This document shows, one piece after another, positions 12,544 to 29,836 of a stretch of DNA of 64,000 nucleotides (position 1 is the stretch's first letter; every line of letters starts with the position of its first letter). Made by a program: the position numbers and the translations under genes. Below the pieces are notes generated by a model, which saw nothing but the letters and a program-made list of their open reading frames with translations, did not search any database and was not told where the DNA came from. The stretch is taken from contig NZ_JAUSXF010000001.1 of NCBI RefSeq assembly GCF_030816475.1, positions 4,278,001 through 4,342,000 of the forward strand, given 5' to 3'. This DNA comes from Arthrobacter pascens (GTDB lineage Bacteria > Actinomycetota > Actinomycetes > Actinomycetales > Micrococcaceae).

Positions 12544-13756
12544 CGATTCCTCCCGGGATAACCTTCACCCGCCGGCCGGACAGCTCTTCCGGAATATCGG
12601 CGTCGACGGCGGCGGTCACCAGGACCTGTTCCGCGCCGGAGACTATTGCCGCCAGTTTACGCCGCCGCTGGACATCCAGCTCGGCAAAAACGTCGTCAAG
12701 GATAAGGATCGGGGCCGAGCCACCCGTCCGCGCGTCGTCGAGCATCACATAATAGGAGGCCAACCGCAGCGAAAGGCACATGGACCAGGTTTCACCATGT
12801 GAGGCATAGCCCTTGGCCGGGGCCTCGCCCAGAACCAGCTCCAGTTCGTCCCGGTGCGGCCCCACCAAAGAAATGCCGCGTTCCAGTTCCTTGCGGCGGG
12901 ATGCCTGGAAGGCCCTGACATAGCGTTCGGTGAGCTCGTCAACGGAAAGCAGCAAAAGGTCTTCAGACCCGGCCGGCTTATCCCCGATACCGATGTCCCC
13001 AACGTCCTTTGCACCGCCGGCACCAAGTTCGGGAGCGCCGCCGTCGTCCATCAGGTTCTGGAGGGTGGACCGGTACACGGCGTCCGCTTCCTTGGATCCA
13101 TCCGTGAGCTGCCCATATGCCTTCGCCAGGTGCGGGCGCAAGCGGTCGACGAGCTCCAGCCGCGCGTGGAGAAGCTCAGCACCGGCACGTGCCATGTGCT
13201 GGTCCCAAACATCCAGGGTTGCCTCATGACCAGCTGTGAATCGTCCGGCCCGGGCCGACTTAAGCAGGGCATTGCGCTGCTTAAGGACGCGGTCGTAATC
13301 ACTGCGCGTTGCGGAATGATGCGGAACCAGGCTCACCAGCAGTTCATCAAGGAACCGGCGGCGGTTGGCGGGATCTCCCTTGACCAGGGCTAGGTCCTCG
13401 GGAGCGAAAAGCACCGTCTGGCAGATTCCCAGGAGGTCACGCGCCCGGACCGGATTACTGCGGTTGATGCGGCCGCGGTTTGCCCGGCTGGCGTTGATCT
13501 CCAGTTCAAGCACAACGGTCTGGCCGCCCCGGACCAGGCGGGCCCGGACCAGGGCGCGGTCCATGCCAAAACGCAGCAGAGGACCATCTGAACTGACCCG
13601 GTGCGAACTGAGCGTGGCCAGGTACCCGATGGCTTCCATCAGGTTTGTCTTGCCGATACCGTTGGATCCGACCAAGACTGTCACACCCGGTTCCAGGGCG
13701 AGCTCAACCTGGGCGTAACTGCGGAAGTCAGTCAGCGAAAGGTGTTCTAGGTACAC
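12536..13756 (-). CDS. recF: DNA replication/repair protein RecF
   Basis: RecF is an SMC-like ATPase that loads RecA at single-strand gaps with RecO and RecR. The 406-aa product shows Walker A GSNGIGKTNLMEAI near residue 30, the signature region around LRLASYY and Walker B PILILDDVFAELD near the C-terminus. The N-terminal MYLEHLSLTDFRSY is family-typical. It lies 42 nt after gnd on the same strand. Confidence 0.97.
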   Translation of the reverse strand: MYLEHLSLTDFRSYAQVELALEPGVTVLVGSNGIGKTNLMEAIGYLATLSSHRVSSDGPLLRFGMDRALVRARLVRGGQTVVLELEINASRANRGRINRSNPVRARDLLGICQTVLFAPEDLALVKGDPANRRRFLDELLVSLVPHHSATRSDYDRVLKQRNALLKSARAGRFTAGHEATLDVWDQHMARAGAELLHARLELVDRLRPHLAKAYGQLTDGSKEADAVYRSTLQNLMDDGGAPELGAGGAKDVGDIGIGDKPAGSEDLLLLSVDELTERYVRAFQASRRKELERGISLVGPHRDELELVLGEAPAKGYASHGETWSMCLSLRLASYYVMLDDARTGGSAPILILDDVFAELDVQRRRKLAAIVSGAEQVLVTAAVDADIPEELSGRRVKVIPGGIDE

Positions 13757-13798
13757 GCTGTCTTCAGAATTCTCGGAACCGCGCGGGTCCCGGGGTGG

Positions 13799-14683
13799 CT
13801 ATTTGGCGGGGCGGGTGGCATGCCCACCGAACTGGTGCCGCAGTGCGGAAACCATCTTCATTGCCGGAGAGTTGTCTTCCCGGGATGAAAAACGGGCAAA
13901 AAGGGCTGCGGTGATGGCGGGGGCGGGAACGGCATTGGCGATGGCCTCTTCCACGGTCCACCGTCCTTCGCCGGAATCCTCCACGTAGTCATCGATGGTC
14001 TGCAGGCCCGGGTCCTCGTCCAACGCCTTGACCATCAGATCCAGCAGCCAGGAACGGACCACCGTACCCTTCTGCCAGGCCCGGAAGGTTCCCGGCAGAT
14101 CCGTCACGATGTCCTTGGCGGCGAGGAGTTCGTAGCCTTCGGCATAGGCCTGCATCAGGCCATATTCGATGCCATTGTGAACCATTTTGGCGTAGTGGCC
14201 GGCCCCTATTCCGCCCACGTGGACAAAGCTGTCCTCGCGTTCCCCGTCAGGCCGGAGGGCGTCAAAAACCGGCAGGGCCCGCTCAATGTCGGCCGCGTCG
14301 CCGCCAGCCATGAGGCCGTAGCCGTTCTGCAGTCCCCAGACGCCGCCGGATACGCCGCAGTCAGCGAACCGGATGCCCTTTTCCGCCAGCAACGCGCCGT
14401 GCTTCTGGTCTTCCGTGAAGCGTGAGTTGCCGCCGTCGATCACCAGGTCCCCGGCATCGAGTTTGTCCCCAAGTTCAGCGATGACGGCATCAGTGACGTC
14501 CCCGGACGGGACCATAACCCAGATGAGGCGCGGTGCGGGCACTGTGGCAATGAGTTCATCCACGGAGGCAACATCGGTGACGTCCGGGTTCCTGTCGAAA
14601 CCGGTGACGTCGATTCCACCCTTGCGCAGGCGTTCGCGCATGTTGAAACCCATTTTTCCGAGGCCGATCAGTCCAATGTGCAT
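13799..14683 (-). CDS. gnd: 6-phosphogluconate dehydrogenase (decarboxylating), short type
   Basis: This enzyme oxidatively decarboxylates 6-phosphogluconate to ribulose-5-phosphate in the pentose phosphate pathway. The 294-aa length fits the short GntZ/YqeC-like class rather than the 470-aa class. The Rossmann motif is GLIGLGKMGFNM, the substrate signature DGGNSRFTEDQ follows, and GISGGVWG-like residues appear as CGVSGGVWGLQNG. The start at 14683 (MHIGLIGLGKMG) has AGAAAGAG about 10 nt upstream; the frame extends uselessly to 14758. Its position between dnaN and recF is also seen in Streptomyces. Confidence 0.95.
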   Translation of the reverse strand: MHIGLIGLGKMGFNMRERLRKGGIDVTGFDRNPDVTDVASVDELIATVPAPRLIWVMVPSGDVTDAVIAELGDKLDAGDLVIDGGNSRFTEDQKHGALLAEKGIRFADCGVSGGVWGLQNGYGLMAGGDAADIERALPVFDALRPDGEREDSFVHVGGIGAGHYAKMVHNGIEYGLMQAYAEGYELLAAKDIVTDLPGTFRAWQKGTVVRSWLLDLMVKALDEDPGLQTIDDYVEDSGEGRWTVEEAIANAVPAPAITAALFARFSSREDNSPAMKMVSALRHQFGGHATRPAK

Positions 14684-14809: not shown

Positions 14810-15934
14810 CTAGTTGGGGAGCCGGACGGGCATCACAAGGTAGCGGTAATCGTCCTGGTCTTCACCGTCGGCATCCACCTGGGCGGTGATCATGGCCGGT
14901 TTGGGCGCCGTGGTGAACGAGAACCTCACGTACTTGGTTTCGATCACGCTGAGTCCCTCAATCAGGTAATGAGGGTTGAAGGCCACTGTGATGTCATCGC
15001 CCGAAAGCTGTGCTTCCAGCTCTTCGGAGGCCTGCGCATCCTCTCCGGTTCCAGCGTCCAGGTGCAGCTGACCCTCGGTGAAGGCCAGCCGGACAGGTGT
15101 GTTGCGCTCGGCAACAAGGGAAACACGGCGGACTGCCTCCACGAGTTCCTGCGTCTGGACGGTGGCGTGGATGGGCGTCGAATCAGGGAAAAGCGAGCGG
15201 ATCTTAGGATAGTCACCGTCAACCAGCAGCGACGTCGTGGTCCGGCCACCGCTTTCGAAGCCAATGAGCCTGCTGTCGTCATCAGCCAGGGCAAGATTGA
15301 TGTCTCCGCTGTTGCCGAGGGTCTTGGCAACTTCATTCAGCGTTTTCGCCTTGACCAGGGCGCTGGTGGAAATACCGGGCGTGACAGGCTTCCACGGGAC
15401 TTCACGCATGGCCAGCCTGTACCGGTCGGTGGCCAGGAGCGTGATGAGGTCATCCTCGATTTCCATCCGGACACCGGTAAGGATCGGGAGCGTGTCGTCC
15501 TTGCTTGCAGCGATGATGACCTGGGAAACGGCCTGGGCGAAGGCATCACCCGGGACGGTACCGCTGATAGCGGGCAATGCAGGAAGAGGCGGGTATTCGG
15601 CCTCGGGCATGGTGGCCAAGTGAAAACTGCTGCGACGGCAGGTCAGTGTGACTTTATTGCCGTCGGTTTCCACGTCCACCGGCGCGGACGGCAGGCTGCG
15701 GCAAATGTCGGCCAGGAGGCGGCCTGAGACCAGGATTGTGCCCTCATCTGTGATGTCAGCGGCAATTTCGAGCCGGGCGGACGTCTCGTAGTCAAAGCTG
15801 GAAAGACTGACAGTGCCCGCTTCTGCTTTGAGGAGCAGGCCTGACAGTACGGGTACCGGCGGCCGCGGAGACAACGACCGGGCTGTCCAAGTGACGGCTT
15901 CTGCCAGGACGTCCCGTTCGACTCTGAACTTCAC
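14810..15934 (-). CDS. dnaN: DNA polymerase III beta subunit (sliding clamp)
   Basis: DnaN forms the dimeric ring that tethers polymerase III to DNA. The 374-aa product starts MKFRVERDVLAEAVTWTARS and ends with the family-typical VMPVRLPN, equivalent to the MPMRL ending that forms part of the client-binding pocket. Three tandem clamp domains are evident from length and motifs such as LLATDRYRLAMRE. It is transcribed away from the dnaA-dnaN interval. Confidence 0.98.
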   Translation of the reverse strand: MKFRVERDVLAEAVTWTARSLSPRPPVPVLSGLLLKAEAGTVSLSSFDYETSARLEIAADITDEGTILVSGRLLADICRSLPSAPVDVETDGNKVTLTCRRSSFHLATMPEAEYPPLPALPAISGTVPGDAFAQAVSQVIIAASKDDTLPILTGVRMEIEDDLITLLATDRYRLAMREVPWKPVTPGISTSALVKAKTLNEVAKTLGNSGDINLALADDDSRLIGFESGGRTTTSLLVDGDYPKIRSLFPDSTPIHATVQTQELVEAVRRVSLVAERNTPVRLAFTEGQLHLDAGTGEDAQASEELEAQLSGDDITVAFNPHYLIEGLSVIETKYVRFSFTTAPKPAMITAQVDADGEDQDDYRYLVMPVRLPN

Positions 15935-16459
15935 GGAAGGGTGCCGCCTTTCATTGCTGCTGCCATGTCTGATCCGGAGACTCCGCCAGGAGCCTCAAAA
16001 GTTGTTGCCCCAAACACGTGAACCTGCATGGTCCGTGCTTGCCGAACCACAGAGAAACCCAAGGATGGGAGCGCTGCTGACAGCTTAGCCGGAAGATCCG
16101 GGATTAACCCATCCCCGGCATGGATCGCCCCGTCAAGGGCATGGCGTTTGCGGCATGGGGCGGAGTGCGGATCGAGATTGTTGTTTGAGGGAAATCGATT
16201 TTTTGGGATTAGTAGTGTTAATAACTGCTGTGGAAACTGTGGATAACCCGATCTGGCAGCAGGATCCAGCGGTTAAGGCCTGTTCATGGACTGTGGGTGG
16301 TGCAGGTTTTAAACAGGGTGTGGATGGGGATAACCGTTTCGCCGTTTTCGCTGATCCACAGATGCCTTAAGGGTTTTAAGCCCATTAACGGCGGTTGTCC
16401 CCTTAAGTTTCCACAGGGTTGTCCACAGCTCCCTGTTAATAAGGTAGGAGTGTGCGGGA
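15935..16459. other. oriC candidate: dnaA-dnaN interval with DnaA boxes
   Basis: This 525-bp gene-free region has many DnaA boxes. They include a perfect TGTGGATAA at 16238-16246 preceded by the variant TGTGGAAAC at 16229-16237, TGGGGATAA at 16325-16333, TGATCCACA at 16352-16360, GTTTCCACA at 16407-16415 and TTGTCCACA at 16419-16427 (the form favoured in Streptomyces). An AT-rich stretch at about 16171-16230, next to the first boxes, could be the unwinding element. In actinobacteria the origin is established in this interval. Confidence 0.85.
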
Positions 16460-17881
16460 TCAGGAGTCCCGTTGCTGCTGTTTGATCCGGTTGGTGAGCT
16501 CGGTGACCTGGTTGTAAATCACGCGGCGCTCGGCCATCAGCTCGCGGATCTTGCGGTCGGCATGGATGACAGTGGTGTGGTCGCGGCCACCGAGTTCCTG
16601 ACCGATCTTCGGCAGCGACATGTCCGTCAGCTCACGGCAGAGGTACATGGCGATCTGACGGGCAGTGACCAGGGTGCGCGTCCGCGACTTGCTGCAAAGC
16701 TCCTCCATGCTGAGCTTGAAGTAGTCGGCCGTCTGCGTGAGGATCTGGCTCGAGGTGATTTCCTGGGCGCCATCGTCCGTGATGAGGTCCTTCAGGACCA
16801 TCTCTGCGAGGGCGACGTCCACGGCCTCCCGGTTGAGGCTTGCAAACGCCGTTACCCGGATCAGGGCACCCTCGAGTTCGCGGATGTTGCTGGAGATCTT
16901 GGAGGCGATGTATTCAAGGGCATCGTCGGGTGCCGAAAGCCCTTCGCTGAGGGCCTTCTTCCGGAGGATGGCGATGCGGGTTTCGAGTTCGGGAGGCTGG
17001 ATGTCTGTCAGGAGGCCCCACTCAAAGCGGGACTTCATCCGGTCCTCGAATCCTGCCAGCAGCTTGGGCGGCTGGTCCGAGGTGATCACCACCTGCTTGT
17101 TGTTGTTATGGAGCGAGTTGAATGTGTGGAAGAACTCCTCCAGCGTCCGGTCCTTGCCGGCAAGGAACTGGATGTCGTCAATCAGCAGCACATCCACGTT
17201 CCGGTACGTGGTCTTGAAGCTGGCACCTTCGTCGTCGCGGATGGAGTTGATGAAGTCGTTGGTGAATTCCTCAGAGTTCACGTAGCGGACCCGGATTCCG
17301 CTGTAGAGCCGGCGGGCATAGTGGCCGATGGCGTGCAGCAGGTGCGTCTTGCCCAGTCCGGAATCGCCGTAGATGAACAGCGGGTTGTAAGCCTTGGCTG
17401 GCGCTTCCGCCACAGCGACAGCTGCAGCATGGGCAAACCGGTTGGATGAACCGATAACGAACGTGTCAAACACGTACTTGGGATTCAGCCTGCCGAATTC
17501 GTGGGATGTGCTTGGCAGCATCGGCTGCGGTTTCTGTTCGATCAGCTGATCGGACGCAAAGGACGGCTCGACGACGAGTTCGGGCTCCACGTGGATAGGA
17601 ACCAAATCGGTGTCCACGTCGATGGCGCAACGGATGTCTTCGGAAAAGACGTTGTGGAGGGCGTCGTCCAGAGCGTCCTTGACCTGCGTCTGCAGGACCT
17701 CACGAGTGAGTTCATTGGGGACAGCCACCAGCAGGGTTGAACCGATCAGGCCCTGGGCCTGGGCCAGGATGACAAAGCCCCGCTGCCTGGGTGTGACGCG
17801 GTCGTCCTGCTCCAGCAGGGTGACAACGCGGCGCCAGGAACTTCCGACAGTATTGGCGTGGTTGGCTTCGTCTACTGTCAT
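16460..17881 (-). CDS. dnaA: Chromosomal replication initiator DnaA
   Basis: DnaA is the AAA+ initiator that binds DnaA boxes and opens oriC. The 473-aa protein has Walker A GDSGLGKTHLLHAIG, Walker B LLIDDIQFLAGK and the DNA-binding domain IV signature GGRDHTTVIHADRKI near the C-terminus. The start at 17881 (MTVDEANHANTVGSSW) was chosen because GAGGAAC sits about 6 nt upstream. The frame opens 5 codons earlier. The gene is divergent from rpmH. Confidence 0.98.
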   Translation of the reverse strand: MTVDEANHANTVGSSWRRVVTLLEQDDRVTPRQRGFVILAQAQGLIGSTLLVAVPNELTREVLQTQVKDALDDALHNVFSEDIRCAIDVDTDLVPIHVEPELVVEPSFASDQLIEQKPQPMLPSTSHEFGRLNPKYVFDTFVIGSSNRFAHAAAVAVAEAPAKAYNPLFIYGDSGLGKTHLLHAIGHYARRLYSGIRVRYVNSEEFTNDFINSIRDDEGASFKTTYRNVDVLLIDDIQFLAGKDRTLEEFFHTFNSLHNNNKQVVITSDQPPKLLAGFEDRMKSRFEWGLLTDIQPPELETRIAILRKKALSEGLSAPDDALEYIASKISSNIRELEGALIRVTAFASLNREAVDVALAEMVLKDLITDDGAQEITSSQILTQTADYFKLSMEELCSKSRTRTLVTARQIAMYLCRELTDMSLPKIGQELGGRDHTTVIHADRKIRELMAERRVIYNQVTELTNRIKQQQRDS

Positions 17882-18343
17882 CAAAAAGTTCCTCAAAACT
17901 TGCTTGCCTGCATTATCTGCAGCCCCAAGTCCGGAACCAGGATGCTGGCCCAGCTTAATCCACAGGGTTATGCACAGTCCGTGGATAATCGGCTACTGAG
18001 CCACTCTAGGGGATCAAAACGCCAGAAGATAGCTGGGAAGTAGCTTGTGGATAATTACACCGTTGTGGTTCGAAAACAGCCGTTGTGAGCCAGTTCATCC
18101 ACAGGGTGTGGAGGGCGCTTAAGCACAGCTGGGGACAGGCATCCCGGCCCGTGTCGGTTTGACTCGAGGGTGCATTTTGCCCTAACGTTGTGAAGTCCTT
18201 TGTGTCCGCTTTTTGGCCCCATCTTGACGTCTCAACGCACAGCGTTCGAGCAGCCGGGGAAGCGTGCATATACAAAACTTAGCGTCGGCCAGTTCTTCCC
18301 CTTGATCGGGTGGGCGCACCTTTGATCCACTGGAGTAACTAAC
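17882..18343. other. dnaA-rpmH interval with DnaA boxes
   Basis: This 462-bp intergenic region has DnaA boxes TAATCCACA (17956-17964), TTATGCACA (17968-17976), CGTGGATAA (17980-17988), perfect TGTGGATAA (18046-18054) and TCATCCACA (18095-18103). They may autoregulate dnaA or form a second half of a bipartite origin. The promoters for dnaA and rpmH must also lie here. Confidence 0.75.
18159..18188 (+). promoter_or_regulatory. Probable rpmH promoter
   Basis: TTGACT (18159-18164) and TAACGT (18183-18188) are separated by 18 bp and lie about 155 nt upstream of rpmH, between the DnaA boxes and the gene. Confidence 0.45.
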
Positions 18344-21635: not shown

Positions 21636-22703
21636 GTGACCAGTAGCGAAGCCTCCACACAACGGATTCCCCCGTTTGTGTCCTTGGGGTCAGCACGATC
21701 AGTAACTGGGGCGGGCCTCGTGCCAGGGCGCGGTGGTATTCACCCAAATCCGGCTTCAGATTCCACTGCTCTGGCAGCTGTTTCACGTGAAACAACCTCA
21801 TCGGGTAAGACGAACGTCATCGACATGATGGATGATTCGAGCCCGATAGCCCGGGAATTAGCACATGAGACCAAGCGTCGGGAACGACTCCTCGGCCGGG
21901 AGCTTCCCAAACCGGAGAAGACCAGGATCTTCACGGTCTCCAACCAAAAAGGTGGGGTAGGCAAGACCACCACCACAGTGAACATTGCGGCGGCCCTGGC
22001 GGCTGCCGGTTTGAATGTCCTGGTCATTGATATCGACCCACAGGGCAACGCCTCCACAGCATTGGGCGTCGAGCACCACGCAGATGTGGACAGCATCTAC
22101 GACGTCCTGATCAACGACTTCCCGCTCGCGGACGTGGTGGCGCCGTGCCCGGACATCAGCAACCTGATATGCGCGCCAGCTACCATCCACCTTGCCGGCG
22201 CAGAGATTGAACTCGTCTCGCTCGTGGCGCGCGAACAACGGCTCCGCAGAGCAATTGACGTGTACTCCAAGGCGCGCGAAAAAAACGGCGAGGAGCGGCT
22301 GGACTATATCTTCATCGACTGCCCGCCGAGCCTGGGCCTGCTCACGGTCAATGCGTTCTGTGCCGCCGGCGAGGTTCTTATCCCCATCCAGTGCGAGTAC
22401 TACGCCCTCGAGGGACTGAGTCAACTGCTCAAGAACATCGAGATGATCCAGAAGCACCTCAATGCTGACCTGATCGTCTCCACTATCCTGCTGACCATGT
22501 ACGACGGCCGCACCAACCTGGCGGCACAGGTGGCAGCAGAGGTACGGCAGCATTTCCCCGATCAGGTTCTGGGAGCCGTGGTTCCCCGCTCGGTGCGGAT
22601 CTCGGAGGCACCGAGTTATCAGCAGACCGTTATGACTTACGACCCTTCCTCCAGCGGAGCCCTGTCCTATCTGGAAGCCGCAGCCGAAATCGCTGAGCGT
22701 TAG
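21636..22703 (+). CDS. parA: Chromosome partitioning ATPase ParA
   Basis: ParA is a Walker-type ATPase that drives segregation of ParB-parS complexes. The deviant Walker A KGGVGKTTTTVN lies near residue 105, followed by DIDPQGNASTALG and the Walker B region FIDCPPSLGLLT. Starting at GTG 21636 gives 355 aa with an N-terminal extension of about 95 residues. That extension includes VSRET, encoded by a perfect parS at 21780-21793. If translation starts later (for example at MMDDSSPIARELAHE, about 21829), the parS would lie in the 5' leader instead. The start is therefore uncertain. Confidence 0.95.
   Translation: MTSSEASTQRIPPFVSLGSARSVTGAGLVPGRGGIHPNPASDSTALAAVSRETTSSGKTNVIDMMDDSSPIARELAHETKRRERLLGRELPKPEKTRIFTVSNQKGGVGKTTTTVNIAAALAAAGLNVLVIDIDPQGNASTALGVEHHADVDSIYDVLINDFPLADVVAPCPDISNLICAPATIHLAGAEIELVSLVAREQRLRRAIDVYSKAREKNGEERLDYIFIDCPPSLGLLTVNAFCAAGEVLIPIQCEYYALEGLSQLLKNIEMIQKHLNADLIVSTILLTMYDGRTNLAAQVAAEVRQHFPDQVLGAVVPRSVRISEAPSYQQTVMTYDPSSSGALSYLEAAAEIAER
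21780..21793. promoter_or_regulatory. parS site inside parA
   Basis: GTTTCACGTGAAAC, flanked as TG...CA to a 16-bp palindrome. ParB-binding consensus, perfect match. Confidence 0.97.
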
Positions 22704-22769: not shown

Positions 22770-24068
22770 ATGAGCGAAAAGCGACGGGGCTTAGGCCGCG
22801 GTCTTGGCGCACTCATTCCAAGTTCCGCCGCTATCAACGGGTCGGGCACTGGAACACCTGCGTCACGCCCAGTGGACCTATTCTTTCCGGAGGGTCGGAA
22901 GAAGGTAGTCCCGGGCGAGGATTCCCTCTCTACGGATGACACCCGGACCCCTTCGGCCGATTCAGCCTCTTCGTCCGGCTCTGAGTCTTCTTCTGCTCCG
23001 GACACTCAGTCGGCAACGGCCACCGAAACCGCAGATGCTTCCAAAGCCGCTGCAACCAAAGCGGAAAGCACGGCAGACACCAAGACGGCTGACAAGCCCG
23101 CAACGGCCAAGACGGCTACCGGGACGGAGCCGGCGGCCCGCAAGACAGCGAACAGCGTGAACGGACGCACAAAGAGTTCCGCAGCGACCGAGACGCCCAA
23201 GGCTGAGGGTGAGATTCCCGAAACAGACAACGGCGTTGACCTGGTGGAAGTCCCCGGAGTGCGCTTCGCTGAGATTCCCGTGACAGACATCCATCCGAAC
23301 CGTAAACAGCCACGCTCGGTCTTCGATGAAGACGACATGGCGGAGCTCATTCACTCCGTACGGGAAATCGGTGTCCTCCAGCCAATTGTGGTGCGGACAT
23401 CAACCGAAGAAGGTGGAGAGCCCTATGAGCTGGTGATGGGTGAGCGCCGGTGGAGGGCTGTTCAGGCTGCGGGCCTGGCAACCATTCCTGCCATTGTGCG
23501 TGACACCACTGACGATGATCTCCTCCGGGATGCTTTGCTTGAGAACCTTCACCGCAGCCAGCTGAATCCGCTGGAAGAAGCGGCGGCTTATCAGCAGCTG
23601 CTCGAAGATTTCGGAACCACCCACGAACAGCTCGCCGATCGCATTGGACGCTCCCGTCCCCAGGTGTCGAACACACTCCGACTGCTCAAACTTCCCCCCT
23701 TGGTCCAGCGCCGGGTAGCTGCAAGTGTGCTCTCTGCCGGGCATGCCCGCGCGCTGCTTGCCCTTCCGGATGCAGCAGCGATGGAGCGGTTGGCGCAAAA
23801 AATCGTGGCCGAAGGTATGTCGGTTCGTGCCACGGAAGAAGCAGTCACCCTGTATCAGGATCCTGCTAAGCCGCCTAAGAACAACATTCCGAGGCCAGGT
23901 GCCCGTCACGAGCGCCTGGATTATCTTGCGTCTTCCCTCTCAGACCGATTGGACACCAACGTTAAGATCTCTCTGGGTGTCCGTAAGGGACGCGTAAGTA
24001 TTGAGTTCGCCAGCGTTGAAGACCTTAATCGCATCATGGAGGTCTTGGCTCCCGGCGACGAGAACTAG
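22770..24068 (+). CDS. parB: Chromosome partitioning protein ParB
   Basis: ParB is the CTP-dependent clamp that loads at parS and spreads. The 432-aa product has a basic start ([17 protein letters not shown]), a long Ala/Thr/Lys-rich low-complexity linker (about 35-150), the ParB N-domain with PNRKQPR and the CTP-binding GERRWRA near residue 223. A helix-turn-helix ([20 protein letters not shown]) and a C-terminal dimerisation region follow. GGAGG lies about 9 nt upstream of the ATG. It follows parA by 66 nt. Confidence 0.97.
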
Positions 24069-24103
24069 CCGTATGTCTTCTAACTAGCCGTACAGTCTTC
24101 TAG

Positions 24104-24135
24104 AGCGGGCCTGTTTCACGTGAAACAGGCCCGCT
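24104..24135 (+). terminator. parAB terminator hairpin with parS at its centre
   Basis: Positions 24104-24135 form a perfect 32-nt palindrome (AGCGGGCCTGTTTCAC and its complement) followed by TTTTGTTTCC, 36 nt after the parB stop. The central 14 bp (24113-24126) are a perfect parS. A strong stem plus T-tract is the standard form of an intrinsic terminator, so one element appears to serve both roles. Confidence 0.8.
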
Positions 24136-24763
24136 TTTGTTTCCCCTGAATCTTACTGAGCTTCTGACTGCGTGCCGTTCTACTTGACCACCGTGCTATC
24201 CCCTGTGATCGTCTTCAACGTCGGTATTTGTGGACTGCAGGTAGGAGTCGCCCCCGATTAGGTTTCCTTTCGTGGTTGTGGAACTGATTTTTGGCCCTGC
24301 AAGATCCGGTGACGCTGGAATCGGGGCGTAGGAGGTAGATTCCAGGCTGCAGGCATGTAGGGCATTCGTGAATACTGCAGTAGGATCGTCGAAATCATAT
24401 AAACCATGGAGGAATGGCGCACAGACGCTCTGCGTGTTTTGGCGCTGACCTGGGATCGGACTGTGCCAAGCGTCGACGCGCTCTTGTTCTCAAAGGCCTT
24501 TTGTCGCCAGACCTTCCTTAGCCAATATCGTGTAGCCGATTGATGAACGCTTGGCCTTTTCGCTTCTGCGTGGAGAATCGTATCTGAGAGGCACAATCTC
24601 CCACTAGTCAGCTGAACACGCTGCCGGGATTATCCGCAGTCGATCCTGTTGTGTGCGGTGCGGCCACTATGCGACAACTCAGAACTCACGCTCCGAGAAC
24701 TCAAGAACTCATCCCCCGGCTACACGAAAACTAGGATGTGGTTTTGCCGTGGCGGCACGCTCG

Positions 24764-24777
24764 GTTTCACGTGAAAC
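24764..24777. promoter_or_regulatory. parS site
   Basis: Perfect GTTTCACGTGAAAC; 651 bp from the terminator-embedded copy. Confidence 0.97.
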
Positions 24778-25004
24778 GTCGTTGCCTCCGCACGGACGTC
24801 ACATCCGCTCAGCCGAGACCAGGGTTTCTGTCGGTTGACTCGGGGGAACGGCCATTCTTCCGATCTGGGAATGGTGGCACCTGGATCATATTGTCCCTTC
24901 CGGGTATCCGAACCACTGGCTGCATATTCCTCGAGCCAGATGCGACGTGACCGTTCATCCAGTGGTCCCGCTACACGGAAGTCGAGCAGTGGCCTGCTGC
25001 ATAG

Positions 25005-25018
25005 GTTTCACGTGAAAC
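25005..25018. promoter_or_regulatory. parS site
   Basis: Perfect GTTTCACGTGAAAC; 241 bp after the previous copy. Confidence 0.97.
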
Positions 25019-26319
25019 ATGGGACTCTTGGGGCTGGCGGGAGGGGACCAACCTTTCGCCCTGGCAGAGACACTTACAGTGAGTCCGTTCAGCCACACAA
25101 CGGTGGAGGAGCTCCCCCGTGGATGATGTGGGGAATGCATCGTTACATTTGCGCCAGCCAACCCCTACCGCTACCAGCGCTGCCGCAGGGCTCGCGGACT
25201 GATAGCTGATCCCTGCATGCCCGTCGAGACCATGCAGAAGCGGGTCGCTCTTGCCGACGGTCGGGCCGGCACGGGAAGGCTCCTACGCGGCGTGTGTCAG
25301 CCGCTTGAAGCGCTCAACAGCGGCGTCCTGTCGGCATCATGGCTATGGGCACCGTGGGTGCTCACACCTCTCTCTGGGATGTCCAGGTCCCCGTGCTCGC
25401 GCTGCGGAAGAGATGTACGCAGAATCCTGCCGCGATGCTGTTCCCGGCAAGCCGCTCACGTTCTCCCACCGGAGAATGGCATGTTTGCCCAGCTATCCGA
25501 GTTGGGCATGATCGTCTATAACGACGGTTCGGCCGGCCGGAGGGCTGATCTATCTTGACCGCCATCTGCCCGTCTCCCGTCGAGGCCTTCAGATCTTCCG
25601 GCCACGTAGCCGTCCGTCGTTGGGGAAGCAGTTCGGCCCCGGTGTTGTCTATACGACGAGGTCTGCGCAAATGGATGAATGGGCTTCGGACCGCTCCCCC
25701 ATGGTCCGGGGTATTTGCGACGACCTTGCGGGCGCCGTGCTGAGGAGCACATTTCGTCCGCGGGGTAAGCCCACGATGCGATCATCTTTCGAAGAAGCCG
25801 GGTAGTGGCCGTTGGCCTCAGTCTTCGCCCAGCGCCAATGGCAAGGACGGATCGACGTGGTGGAGCGGGCATCCGTGGCATCTCAGGGCCTCCCAGTCGC
25901 GGACTGTCTGTTGTCGGGCTGATGATGCAGATTCCCGGATCGTGCTCTTGCTCCCGGTATGTGTGGCAGTGTCTTGGCACCGGAACGATAGCCCTGCCTG
26001 TAGGTGCATTCGCAGCTTTGCTTGATTTGCACTTATGCAGTCCCCGAGCTGAGCTTCTCTTGCGACCAGCCATCCAGGATTAGTCGTCGTCAATTTCCCG
26101 CGCACAAAGTCATTGCCTTGCTCTGTCGACCATTGTCTGGACCCAGCAGTCGTACAGGCAGAGCGATCTCCTCAATCGTGTTCGCGTCATCCCTGGCGCC
26201 CTTTGGATCCTCCACATTGGGCCATAAATGGAGTCCACAGCGCGAGGACGAGGTTCAGCTGCACATTTCCACACGGTATGAACGGCAGCCTTGGCTGTGC
26301 ATAGTGTGGTGGATATCGC

Positions 26320-26340
26320 TGTGGATAACTTTGTGGATAG
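26320..26340. promoter_or_regulatory. DnaA-box pair outside oriC
   Basis: Perfect TGTGGATAA at 26320-26328 and TGTGGATAG at 26332-26340, same orientation, 3 bp apart. A degenerate TGTGCATAG precedes them at 26296. Confidence 0.65.
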
Positions 26341-26434
26341 TCCTACTCAGGTCCGCCCTCTGTGCTAGACGCCCATGCGACAAAACGTTCCCGAACGACC
26401 TCGAGTACATAGCCGGCAGTCCGGAACGTCAGCT

Positions 26435-26448
26435 GTTTCACGTGAAAC
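26435..26448. promoter_or_regulatory. parS site
   Basis: Perfect GTTTCACGTGAAAC; lies between the two DnaA-box groups. Confidence 0.97.
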
Positions 26449-26664
26449 ATGAAGGAGCGGCATACTCCCCGTGCCGAAAACTGCATAAAATCGCCTTGTG
26501 TAGGCGAATTCCGGCGAGTATTCGTGGAAAACCAGGTCAGAAGCGGAGGTGATGATTCTCTATTCCGCCGTCCCTACGCTTGATACGATGACAAGCTGTC
26601 GCAGCCCTACTCGTGATCTAAATCCACAGGCCCCTTAACCTGCCGAGAAAGCTGTGGGAAGGCC

Positions 26665-26698
26665 TGTGGATAACGGTGTGAATAACTTCTGGGGATAA
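26665..26698. promoter_or_regulatory. DnaA-box triplet outside oriC
   Basis: Perfect TGTGGATAA at 26665-26673, TGTGAATAA at 26677-26685 and TGGGGATAA at 26690-26698, all in the same orientation at 12-13-bp steps. Confidence 0.65.
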
Positions 26699-27422
26699 CC
26701 GGTCGCTCTCGGTGCATAGGAGCATGAGTCATCGGTCGCGTGGCACTGAGACGCACGGATGAGCCTAGCTGCATCCCTCGGACGAAGGTCGTGGGAGACA
26801 GAACCACTGTGGGATTGGACCACGTATGTGGCCCTTCCCGGGGGCCACGAACTCTGCATCGCTTCCGCCACGAATGGGTGGAGCTGCAGGCACGGTAAAG
26901 ATGGGCGGGTCTGGTGACTGTTCCAGTAGGTACGCCAACGATGGCCGCCTGAACCCGAGGACCTCCTTGGACCATCTGGTTCCCTGGTTCCCTAGTGATG
27001 ACCATCTGGCTCCCCGGCGAAGAGCATGCGGTTTCGCTGGACGTAAGCCACGCAGCGAACGTGGCTCGTCCTCGCCGCCGATACATTAATCGGCCAAATC
27101 GAACTCCACTTGGGTCCGGAGTCGTGATGTGGTGCTGAGGATTCAAGCCGTGCGACCCGCCCGCTTGGCGAACAGAAGGGCTACGTATGCGCCGACCCAT
27201 CCGGTCGGTCTCCGGACACTCGGGCTCTGTCCCTGCATACTCTCGTGTCGCTGAGGCTTGCGAACTGGAAGGCCGCTTGTTGAGAAACCGACGCTCCAGG
27301 ATATGTGGCGCGTTTGCTGTAGGTGCCGACGCGCGATCCTGTGTGGGGTCACCGTTTTATCTGAAACGCTGAGCCGAAATGCCATTGGGGATTGAGATGC
27401 GAGTTCAGACCAGCGGGATGGT

Positions 27423-27436
27423 GTTTCACGTGAAAC
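27423..27436. promoter_or_regulatory. parS site
   Basis: Perfect GTTTCACGTGAAAC. Confidence 0.97.
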
Positions 27437-28366
27437 TCTAACCGCACATAGATGGGGTGAGTCCGGACCCCGGATGGGACAAGAGGGAGTTGCTCGAACC
27501 CAGTTCGATGTTGATCTGTTCTTCTCTTGGCCACAGCCGGTTGAGCACTCGGATCAGGAAATAGGTGGCCCTGTGGCGGGACCGCCATTTGGTCATCAGC
27601 TCTTCCGTTGCAGTGAAATCTAGCGCCATACCTGGCGGCGGCGGAGAGACGCAGAAAGTCAGGGGAATGACGAGAGAAAGGAGAATAGCCGGCTCCGAAT
27701 GGGTCCGCGCTGTAGAAGGTCTCGATTCAGCCGACGTCAGCGTTCGCGTGAGATGGTCTCCGAAATGCACTCCTTTCTCAGGACAGGCGCCCAATCCCAG
27801 ATCGTTCAAGACTCCTGGAGTGCCCGTATTACGATCCGTGCGTTCTGACCGCCCATCCTGGACTTCAGCGGAAACGCTATCGTCGTGAGCACTCAGCATG
27901 GCAGGGCCGAGGGCTGGTGCTGATCCAAATCCAATGTTTTTTACAGTCGGATGTGGCCGTGTTGCTATTGCCAGGGCTGTGCAATGCCCAGACTGCCCCG
28001 ATTGCTGGAACCCGCAGAACCGTCGAATCAGATCACATGTTGTTCCCGAGCCGAACCACAAGACTCCCCGTCCAGAAGCCAAAACTGGCGGGTGCACGGG
28101 TTGTCGTGGAACGCTGTCCTGATTCTCGAACGTGATGTATCGCGGAGACATGACTTTGACTGTTCGAGGGAGGCGTACTCCCTGGGCAGCAAGCCTGAAA
28201 TGCTGAACCCGCTACCTGGACAACCTTGCCATCTACAAACCATGGCTCCTACGTCGACGATGGAATCTTCCGTTATTGGATCTGTCCTCTTCTGGCAGTA
28301 ACGCTACCTTTTTCATGTGTCTGCGCGTAGACGCCGGCTCAATTCGCGGCCCCGACTGCTTGACAT

Positions 28367-28380
28367 GTTTCACGTGAAAC
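28367..28380. promoter_or_regulatory. parS site
   Basis: Perfect GTTTCACGTGAAAC, flanked TG...CA hence a 16-bp palindrome as in the parA and terminator copies. Confidence 0.97.
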
Positions 28381-29047
28381 ACGAGAGGCGCTGGCAGCAA
28401 AAACCGAGCCTCACCACAGACTCATATCGTGAAAATAGAAGATGGGAGGCCACAACTGGGCTTTCATCCGTTCTCTTTCCCTGACGGCGATCCCAACCGT
28501 CCGCTACGCAGAAGTCGAGGCGTACCGGCGTCAGCTTCTCGAATCAGTCGTACGGACTCGTAGTCGCGCCCGGAAACCCAAATGTCCGGGATGAGGGTGG
28601 AGTACTCTCAGTCGCTTGATCATTCGGTATGGAACGCATGGCGAAGTTTGAGAGCTGAGCCCGCAGCGCGGGAACGTGGAGTAGGAGTCGCATGGTTTCC
28701 TTGGCGCGGCGCCTGACCCTTGAGATTGCCTTTGGTCTCAGATGCCCCTCTCAGACGCCCCAACGAAGTTCACCATTTGCGGGAAATCGAGAGAATCAGA
28801 ACATGAACCGCGATCTGGCATTGATGCCTCTTCAGAGGCATTGCTGCTCCTGGGCGGTTTGGCATTGAAGTATTGCTGCTCTTGGAGGGATAGATACCTG
28901 TTTTGGTCGGCTATTGGTCCTGTGTATTGGTACTTTCGTCATGAGTGGAAAGGTGGGCGCAGTAGCCCGGGGAAGTTTCGGTGTCGAGCGCGGCCAGGCA
29001 TTGGGCGCGGACCGACCGGGGTCTGGCAGACACCAGTGATGCGTCTG

Positions 29048-29061
29048 GTTTCACGTGAAAC
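29048..29061. promoter_or_regulatory. parS site
   Basis: Perfect GTTTCACGTGAAAC; 120 bp from the last copy, the tightest spacing in the island. Confidence 0.97.
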
Positions 29062-29167
29062 GGTGCAACGTTTCCTCGGAACCAAGCGACCAAATCCTGT
29101 CTTGCTCGGTGATGGAACCCAGTCGGGCCCAAAGGAGGAAGCAGCAGGAAGCGGGACCGTTCTCACT

Positions 29168-29181
29168 GTTTCACGTGAAAC
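29168..29181. promoter_or_regulatory. parS site
   Basis: Perfect GTTTCACGTGAAAC; the copy nearest trxA. Confidence 0.97.
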
Positions 29182-29425
29182 ACGCTGCGCTCCCCCCTGT
29201 TCACCGGCCGTGGAAGAAGCTGCAGCAGTCGACAGGAGACAACGGACCATGAAGCGAGCAGCATGAGCAATCCTGCACAAAAGAAGCGTCCTAGTAAAAC
29301 GAACTCAATTGATCCCACTCCACACTGCAGTAGTCGCACCGCACCCGGCAGAACGCTTTCAGTCTCTGCGTAGGTTCAAGCCAAGTCACACCCGGGATCC
29401 CCGATGTGGACCAAGGCGGCGGAAA

Positions 29426-29459
29426 AGAAGATGGCCACCGCTCCGGGAAGCGGTGGCCA
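29426..29459 (-). terminator. trxBA terminator
   Basis: TGGCCACCGCT (29432-29442) pairs perfectly with AGCGGTGGCCA (29449-29459) around a 6-nt loop. On the minus strand it is followed by TCTTCTTTTCC. It lies 50 nt beyond the trxA stop and marks the right edge of the parS island. Confidence 0.85.
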
Positions 29460-29509
29460 CTAATTCAGGTTACTGACCCGTCCTCGTTTGCGAGGAGGAG
29501 ACACAGTCC

Positions 29510-29836
29510 CTAGGAAAGGACGTCGGCAAATTCTTTTTCAAAGAACTGCTTGGGCTTGGCTCCGATAACGGTGCTCTTCACCTGGCCGTCCTGGAAGAGA
29601 TAAACAGCCGGAATGGACGTGATGCCATACTCGGCGGCGATCGCGGGGTTATCGTCCACGTTCACCTTCACGACATTGACCTTCTCACCGTACTCCACGG
29701 AGATTTCGTCGAGGATGGGGCCAAGTTTGCGGCAGGGACCGCACCATTCTGCCCAGAAATCCACGATGACCGGCTTATCGGCGGACAGAACGTCCGAGCC
29801 GAAACTTGCATCTGTTACGTCTTTTGCATTGCTCAT
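29510..29836 (-). CDS. trxA: Thioredoxin
   Basis: This 108-aa cytoplasmic thioredoxin reduces protein disulfides. The redox motif WCGPC lies in FWAEWCGPCRKLGP near residue 32, and the cis-proline is in ITSIPAVYLF. It follows trxB by 36 nt, so thioredoxin and its reductase are made from one transcript. The trxB-trxA pair beside parB is a conserved actinobacterial arrangement. Confidence 0.97.
   Translation of the reverse strand: MSNAKDVTDASFGSDVLSADKPVIVDFWAEWCGPCRKLGPILDEISVEYGEKVNVVKVNVDDNPAIAAEYGITSIPAVYLFQDGQVKSTVIGAKPKQFFEKEFADVLS

Follow-up and report, generated by a model that had tools for sequence, protein, structure and literature searches.

Why should a bacterial chromosome keep more than five kilobases (kb) of gene-free DNA beside its partition genes, and what does such a stretch hold? 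The question arises from a window of 64,000 nucleotides of Arthrobacter pascens (C1:4278001-4342000 of a 4,682,474-base genome), in which parB (22770-24068, plus strand; Pfam ParB_N, HTH_ParB and ParB_C) and trxA (29510-29836, minus strand; Pfam Thioredoxin) converge on an island of 5,441 base pairs (bp; 24069-29509) carrying eight perfect parS sites. An earlier note on this DNA had drawn attention to these sites and proposed that the block serves as an assembly platform for ParB. The island is non-coding, is conserved as an interval among relatives, and carries at its core an element that the note did not describe: two arrays of DnaA-box-like sites, head to tail and facing one way, with a perfect parS between them. 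The arrays and this central parS are the only conserved island content found besides the other parS and the hairpins at the two ends.

The island spans the interval from the parB stop (24068) to the trxA stop (29510) and, because the two genes are convergent, no flanking gene begins inside it. Under a codon model trained on 32 open reading frames (ORFs) of the window, with 240-nucleotide segments held against the fifth percentile of gene segments, 0 of 86 island segments appear coding. The longest ORF in the island (237 residues) is slightly above the 95th percentile of simple shuffles (218 residues); its coding score is negative and its guanine-plus-cytosine (GC) content is flat across codon positions. 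A Pfam search of ten of the longest island ORFs returned nothing above the cut-off and one sub-threshold match (E = 0.06), and a tblastn comparison of 43 island ORFs of at least 50 residues with the 44 other islands described below gave two short weak matches and nothing else, such that the gene-free block of about 5.4 kb described earlier is borne out by codon usage and homology alike. No sigma-70-like promoter was found in the island, where 2.0 would be expected, and the only known RNA families across the window are two transfer RNAs, both outside the island. In the 454 kb around the origin the island is the longest stretch free of coding-like segments, at 5,820 bp (a figure that includes a small part of the flanking genes) versus 1,980 bp for the next. 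To the right of the window, at G000:C1:4355001-4364241, there is a group of several closely spaced runs of 1.2-2.0 kb that look non-coding and are perhaps foreign DNA with other codon usage.

Nine perfect copies of the 14-mer parS (GTTTCACGTGAAAC) were recovered from the window, each where the earlier note had placed it. Eight lie in the island, at 24113-24126 (parS 1, part of the parB-end hairpin stem), 24764-24777 (parS 2), 25005-25018 (parS 3), 26435-26448 (parS 4, the central site between both arrays), 27423-27436 (parS 5), 28367-28380 (parS 6), 29048-29061 (parS 7) and 29168-29181 (parS 8). The ninth (21780-21793) falls in the 5' part of parA (21636-22703, plus strand; Pfam AAA_31 and CbiA), no more than about 55 codons into the longest parA ORF, which has a putative start codon. 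The claim that these sites far exceed chance holds, in that the count remains nine when two mismatches are allowed, against 0.16 expected from shuffles and a maximum of two in any of 100. Across the whole genome these nine are the only perfect parS, and a reversed-pattern control returned none. The arrangement is that of a ParABS centromere, with consensus parS near both the Pfam-identified parA and parB and the origin.

The two arrays lie on either side of parS 4. Array 1 (26296-26340, minus strand) consists of four head-to-tail DnaA-box-like sites starting at 26296, 26308, 26320 and 26332, with the box TTATCCACA, of E. coli type, read on the minus strand, and array 2 (26653-26698, minus strand) has its boxes at 26653, 26665, 26677 and 26690 in the same orientation. 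The step between boxes is 12 bp in both, apart from one step of 13, the arrays are about 350 bp apart, and parS 4 is about 130 bp from array 1. Pairs of boxes 12 bp apart occur ten times in the genome with up to three mismatches, and the two best matches lie in arrays 1 and 2. This is a cluster of DnaA boxes beyond chance outside oriC, as in sites of the datA or titration type.

The comparison with relatives was built on two samples. A ParB search, taken as the best 80 loci among the matches listed, gives 81 loci with the window included; both arrays are present in the parB-trxA gap of 27 of them (26 and the window) and in none of the other 54 at the same threshold. A second sample, drawn so as not to favour genomes with arrays, combined the 20 listed of the 49 genomes of the genus lacking a blastn match to the island with three lacking a triple-array pattern, for a total of 23. 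Five of the 23 duplicate loci of the ParB search and were removed from the combined set (L188, L193, L196, L197 and L201 were removed as repeats of genomes already among those loci). The resulting 45 distinct islands comprise the 26 array-bearing loci, the window and 18 further genomes of the genus. Two of them (L010 and L021) end at contig ends; these were kept among the 45 and excluded from the coding and trxA-end tests. Islands L184-L206 were cut from just before the parB stop, and their lengths and parB-end windows begin up to about 100 bases early.

Comparison of the parB-trxA interval across relatives, which the earlier note had put forward as a check, revealed a conserved block of 3.8-9.1 kb with 3-11 perfect parS in the 45 islands, 41 of which are 4.0-7.05 kb long, and an overall density of 1.44 perfect parS per kb. 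No coding-like segment occurs in 20 of the 25 array islands tested, and the fraction in the other five is 0.01-0.17, the top value belonging to an island with an insertion. Conversely, among 18 control loci that fall outside the Micrococcaceae-type clade and have a gap above 600 bp, the fraction of coding segments is 0.71-0.95 in 16 and 0.50 and 0.69 in the other two. Individual islands do hold ORFs: the longest (L017, 9.1 kb) has one of 281 residues past array 2 (14916-15761, minus strand) with no Pfam family, and in A. gandavensis (L023) an N-acetylmuramoyl-L-alanine amidase gene identified by Pfam (14920-16107, minus strand) lies between the parS block and trxA, with an ORF of equal length at the same place in A. 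koreensis (L024). The equivalent of the ninth parS is perfect in 24 of the 26 array-bearing loci of the ParB search, has one mismatch in one and is missing in one.

Within this conserved frame, most of the sequence has been replaced. Aligned by blastn with the 44 other islands, 5,056 of the 5,441 bases of the window island have no match; a match in four or more islands is confined to array 1, array 2, parS 1, the central parS and two further parS. The block at array 1 (26299-26340) is matched in up to 30 of the 44 and that at array 2 (26652-26698) in up to 12. Against 150 genomes of the genus, the window's own included, 101 have a match to the island; the matches are short, and among those listed the pile-ups occur at the parS-terminator region, at about 26293-26343 and at about 26651-26711. 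A MAFFT alignment of 26 modules, from which L006 was excluded, brings array 1, parS and array 2 into register and little else among the alignment parts listed.

The geometry of the module is recurrent. All 89 array groups in the 45 islands face one way, with exactly two groups in 44 islands and one in L202, and the separation between arrays has a median of 356 bp (interquartile range 345-371.5, range 323-1,851). With up to one mismatch, an island has on average 5.4 forward boxes and 0.3 reverse boxes versus 0.56 in total in shuffles, and 5.13 of the 5.4 forward boxes fall in the 540-bp module. Array groups were absent from 540 Markov shuffles, and the arrays are therefore not a product of chance. 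Measured from the start of array 1, 34 of the 45 islands have a perfect parS between +100 and +160 and another six have one between -100 and -60, which places initiator-type sites adjacent to a perfect parS in 40 of 45; allowing one mismatch, with extra copies at +140 and +153, the number is 42. The surroundings are a parS-poor zone, as only one other perfect parS, at -457 in L017, is found within 500 bp of the array 1 start in all 45 islands.

Both ends of the island are marked by terminator-like hairpins. At the parB end (24104-24135, plus strand) the hairpin overlaps parS 1 and has perfect 16-bp arms (24104-24119 and 24120-24135), with a fold of -29.6 kcal/mol for 24089-24143; at the trxA end (29431-29460, minus strand) it has 13 pairs. 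For the strongest hairpin the median energy is -25.9 kcal/mol over 45 parB ends and -30.0 kcal/mol over 43 trxA ends, as opposed to -16.3 kcal/mol in the interior, and the fifth percentile of the interior is passed by 87% of parB-end and 98% of trxA-end hairpins. With parS and boxes masked, k-mer enrichment identified the trxA-end hairpin core GCGGTGGCC, remnants of the end of parB itself where stretches still included it, and weak items besides. In the window parS 1 also serves as a stem of the parB-end hairpin, and the first parS of several islands is alike; eight islands, that of the window among them, have extended palindromes with a half-length of 12-19 no more than 50 bp from their start.

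The arrays have a narrower distribution than the parS downstream of parB. On a quick ParB tree with some open forks, the 27 array loci fall within a clade of 31 rows with a Shimodaira-Hasegawa-like approximate likelihood ratio (SH-aLRT) support of 100, in which the array-less rows are two Psychromicrobium (gaps of 60 and 93 bp) and strains E3 and PH39-S1, and by parsimony two changes suffice to account for array presence and absence. All 28 array-less rows of a larger, 55-row ParB clade have at least one perfect parS before trxA or the end of the locus, and outside it 1 of 26 rows has a downstream parS (L064, where trxA was not found). All 23 genomes of the second sample have a long gap with parS; both arrays are present in 22 of them and a module parS with up to one mismatch in 21. 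At any genomic position, the exact pattern TGTGGATA-N(85-115)-parS occurs in 103 of 150 genomes of the genus, the window's own included, with none for the reversed control. In an order-wide draw the exact box-N(85-115)-parS pattern was found in 4 of 8 genomes of the genus (own included) and in 1 of 289 others, that one (L207, genome G637) belonging to another family. The looser triple-array pattern, again at any position, is present in 21 of 24 genomes of the genus (own included) and in 52 of 271 from other genera. In 11 of the 52 a match lies roughly 2 kb or less from where a contig starts, which is read as the dnaA region; some of the remainder may be island arrays, as in Sinomonas (L020). 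A different conserved row of boxes with a 12-bp step was seen in genomes of genus g32 (e.g., G393:C1:1811-1841), 1.4-2.1 kb from the contig start in nine genomes, probably also in the dnaA region.

What might such an island do? The block is probably a ParB loading platform, judging from its sequence, and to this extent the role proposed in the earlier note stands: the DNA is non-coding, carries eight of the nine parS in the genome and is conserved. The proposal was incomplete, in that it missed the two DnaA-box arrays. We propose that the island is a dedicated, transcription-insulated centromere with a core that couples DnaA to ParB, and consider this somewhat more probable than its negation. 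ParB would load at the eight parS and, from what is known of ParB biology, slide across the gene-free DNA, which the strong hairpins at both ends may insulate. The core, in which array 1, parS and array 2 form a composite, lies some 10 kb away from the origin candidate at dnaA-dnaN and would bind DnaA cooperatively at both head-to-tail arrays, and the adjoining parS would let DnaA and ParB occupancy influence each other. A centromere of this kind could sense or titrate the initiator and so link replication initiation with origin segregation, in a direction that we can only presume. A bolder version, offered tentatively and as rather doubtful, is a two-state switch in which DnaA would form a filament along the two arrays and ParB clamps would load at the central parS, each excluding or licensing the other; the element would read the DnaA level and release either initiation or segregation, having evolved in the actinobacterial lineage apart from Caulobacter and Vibrio, with the surrounding gene-free DNA kept for ParB sliding.

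The main rival to coupling is pure titration, in which the arrays are a plain site of DnaA titration or inactivation, like datA of E. coli or the cluster of Streptomyces, that happens to occupy the nearest free DNA, the nearness of parS being without function. We hold this to be a fair possibility, though less likely than coupling. The box content, the near-origin position and the lack of a strongly AT-rich element all suit a titration site, and the arrays can be absent where parS stay. Against it, the narrow offset of the module parS, or its place at most 100 bp to the opposite side in six islands, and the parS-poor zone, which persists though most of the surrounding sequence is unalignable, speak against an accidental neighbour. 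The island could also be a ParB platform pure and simple, with the 12-bp arrays binding a regulator other than DnaA. The array-binding protein is named here from sequence, and in the excerpted table of PMC4285127 the two actinobacterial high-affinity boxes are TTGTCCACA, unlike the TTATCCACA of array 1. But TTATCCACA is tabulated there as the high-affinity box of four other bacteria, similar boxes occur in the dnaN-dnaA interval and upstream of dnaA, including two on the same strand 12 bp apart (17956 and 17968), and the genome encodes a DnaA with its DNA-binding domain (longest ORF 16460-17896, minus strand; Pfam Bac_DnaA and Bac_DnaA_C). We judge a regulator other than DnaA improbable.

A second or auxiliary replication origin would be another use of paired arrays, which together with their spacer look like a split origin. 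The lowest GC content over 50 bp in the module (median 0.42, 25 loci) is slightly below that in the rest of the island (0.46), and the AT skew is unequal across the arrays (-0.091 and -0.027 in 27 islands, p = 2e-5). This change in AT skew is a drift along the island that is strongest at both ends, without a step at the arrays, and the GC skew is positive on either side (0.039 and 0.048, p = 0.34) without a switch. The module also lacks the AT-rich unwinding element beside boxes that marks an oriC. The conventional candidate in the dnaN-dnaA interval (16175-16427) has a 50-mer of 30% GC at 16175-16224 adjoining DnaA-box-like sites at 16229-16427, and the dnaN-dnaA median for the lowest 50 bp is much lower than that of the module (0.30, 26 loci). 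Because there is neither a GC-skew switch nor a strongly AT-rich element, the module is probably not the main origin, and we judge an auxiliary one distinctly improbable; at the scale of the genome, GC skew is too weak to locate the origin. Least credible of all, to the point of being very nearly dismissed, is that the block once coded for protein and decayed, the parS being what remains. The mostly coding interval outside the Micrococcaceae-type clade and the amidase gene adjoining trxA in L023 would suit decay, but the coding signal is zero in most of the array islands tested, protein similarity between islands is nearly absent, and both the length of the block and its perfect parS have been retained.

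It should be noted that several observations weigh against a coupling core, beginning with the actinobacterial boxes cited above. Five of the 45 islands have no perfect module parS, two of these having a one-mismatch copy, and six carry the parS on the opposite side of array 1; four of the latter (L009, L015, L018 and L021) cluster on the ParB tree with a support of 80, and therefore a single move could explain their parS position. In L006 an ORF with an rve integrase core (13434-14429, minus strand) separates array 2 from the central parS, with 1,851 bp from one array to the other, which means that the spacing can be broken. Relatives without arrays include the two Psychromicrobium, two sister strains with parS in the gap and a further 24 loci in the Micrococcaceae-type clade, and relaxing the box threshold in 11 array-less loci still gave no array in the gap. 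These relatives and the L006 insertion indicate that the exact form of the element is not universally needed. The island counts are furthermore non-independent owing to shared ancestry, and therefore represent constraint on kept elements and not independent inventions. DnaA binding to the arrays is itself predicted from their boxes.

How replication initiation is coupled to segregation in bacteria is an open question, and direct links between initiator and centromere have been described for few species. Across dozens of genomes nearly the whole of this island has turned over, with the parS, both DnaA-box arrays and the hairpins at the ends as the exceptions. The result is a compact, mutable element in soil bacteria. 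Nature supplies variants of it, among them islands with the parS on the opposite side of array 1, one in which an insertion parts the arrays, and relatives that lack arrays, and the gene-free block offers ParB sliding a clean, transcription-free substrate. Clustered parS are already known, as are initiator sites at the centromere in two other lineages. New, and undescribed in the titles and abstract openings searched, is a conserved gene-free parS block in Actinobacteria with paired DnaA-box arrays at its core. None of those titles and abstract openings describes the Arthrobacter island or DnaA sites at parS, a search that had subscription papers outside its scope and does not establish absence in print.

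In E. coli, datA and DARS are non-coding clusters of DnaA boxes outside oriC that tune initiation (PMC4585315). The arrays resemble them as a non-coding DnaA-box cluster away from oriC. A DnaA-box cluster near oriC in Streptomyces is reportedly also non-coding and tunes initiation; to our knowledge, neither it nor datA/DARS is embedded in a centromere. Corynebacterium glutamicum likewise has clustered parS in an actinobacterium, ten in a single cluster of which nine are intergenic (PMC7083940). The earlier contrast with parS that sit among genes loses force if 'among' is taken as 'inside'. That cluster is spread over 35 kb, 73 kb from oriC, and the excerpt of PMC7083940 does not mention an initiator array. 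On chromosome II of Vibrio cholerae, initiator sites and a parS share a single locus, as the predicted sites do here, and at rctA/parS2 the spreading of ParB2 can displace RctB, with titration near the origin (PMC6399470, PMC4468827); the initiator there is RctB, which is unrelated to DnaA. The parS region of Caulobacter crescentus offers the same likeness of initiator-type sites at a centromere near the origin: a DnaA-binding sequence lies at parS, about 8 kb from the origin, and DnaA has been proposed to trigger segregation (Mera et al. 2014, via PMC6399470, PMC4468827, PMC6667618). Unlike Caulobacter, the Arthrobacter island belongs to an actinobacterium and combines two ordered head-to-tail arrays of predicted DnaA sites at a recurrent spacing with eight parS in a gene-free block.

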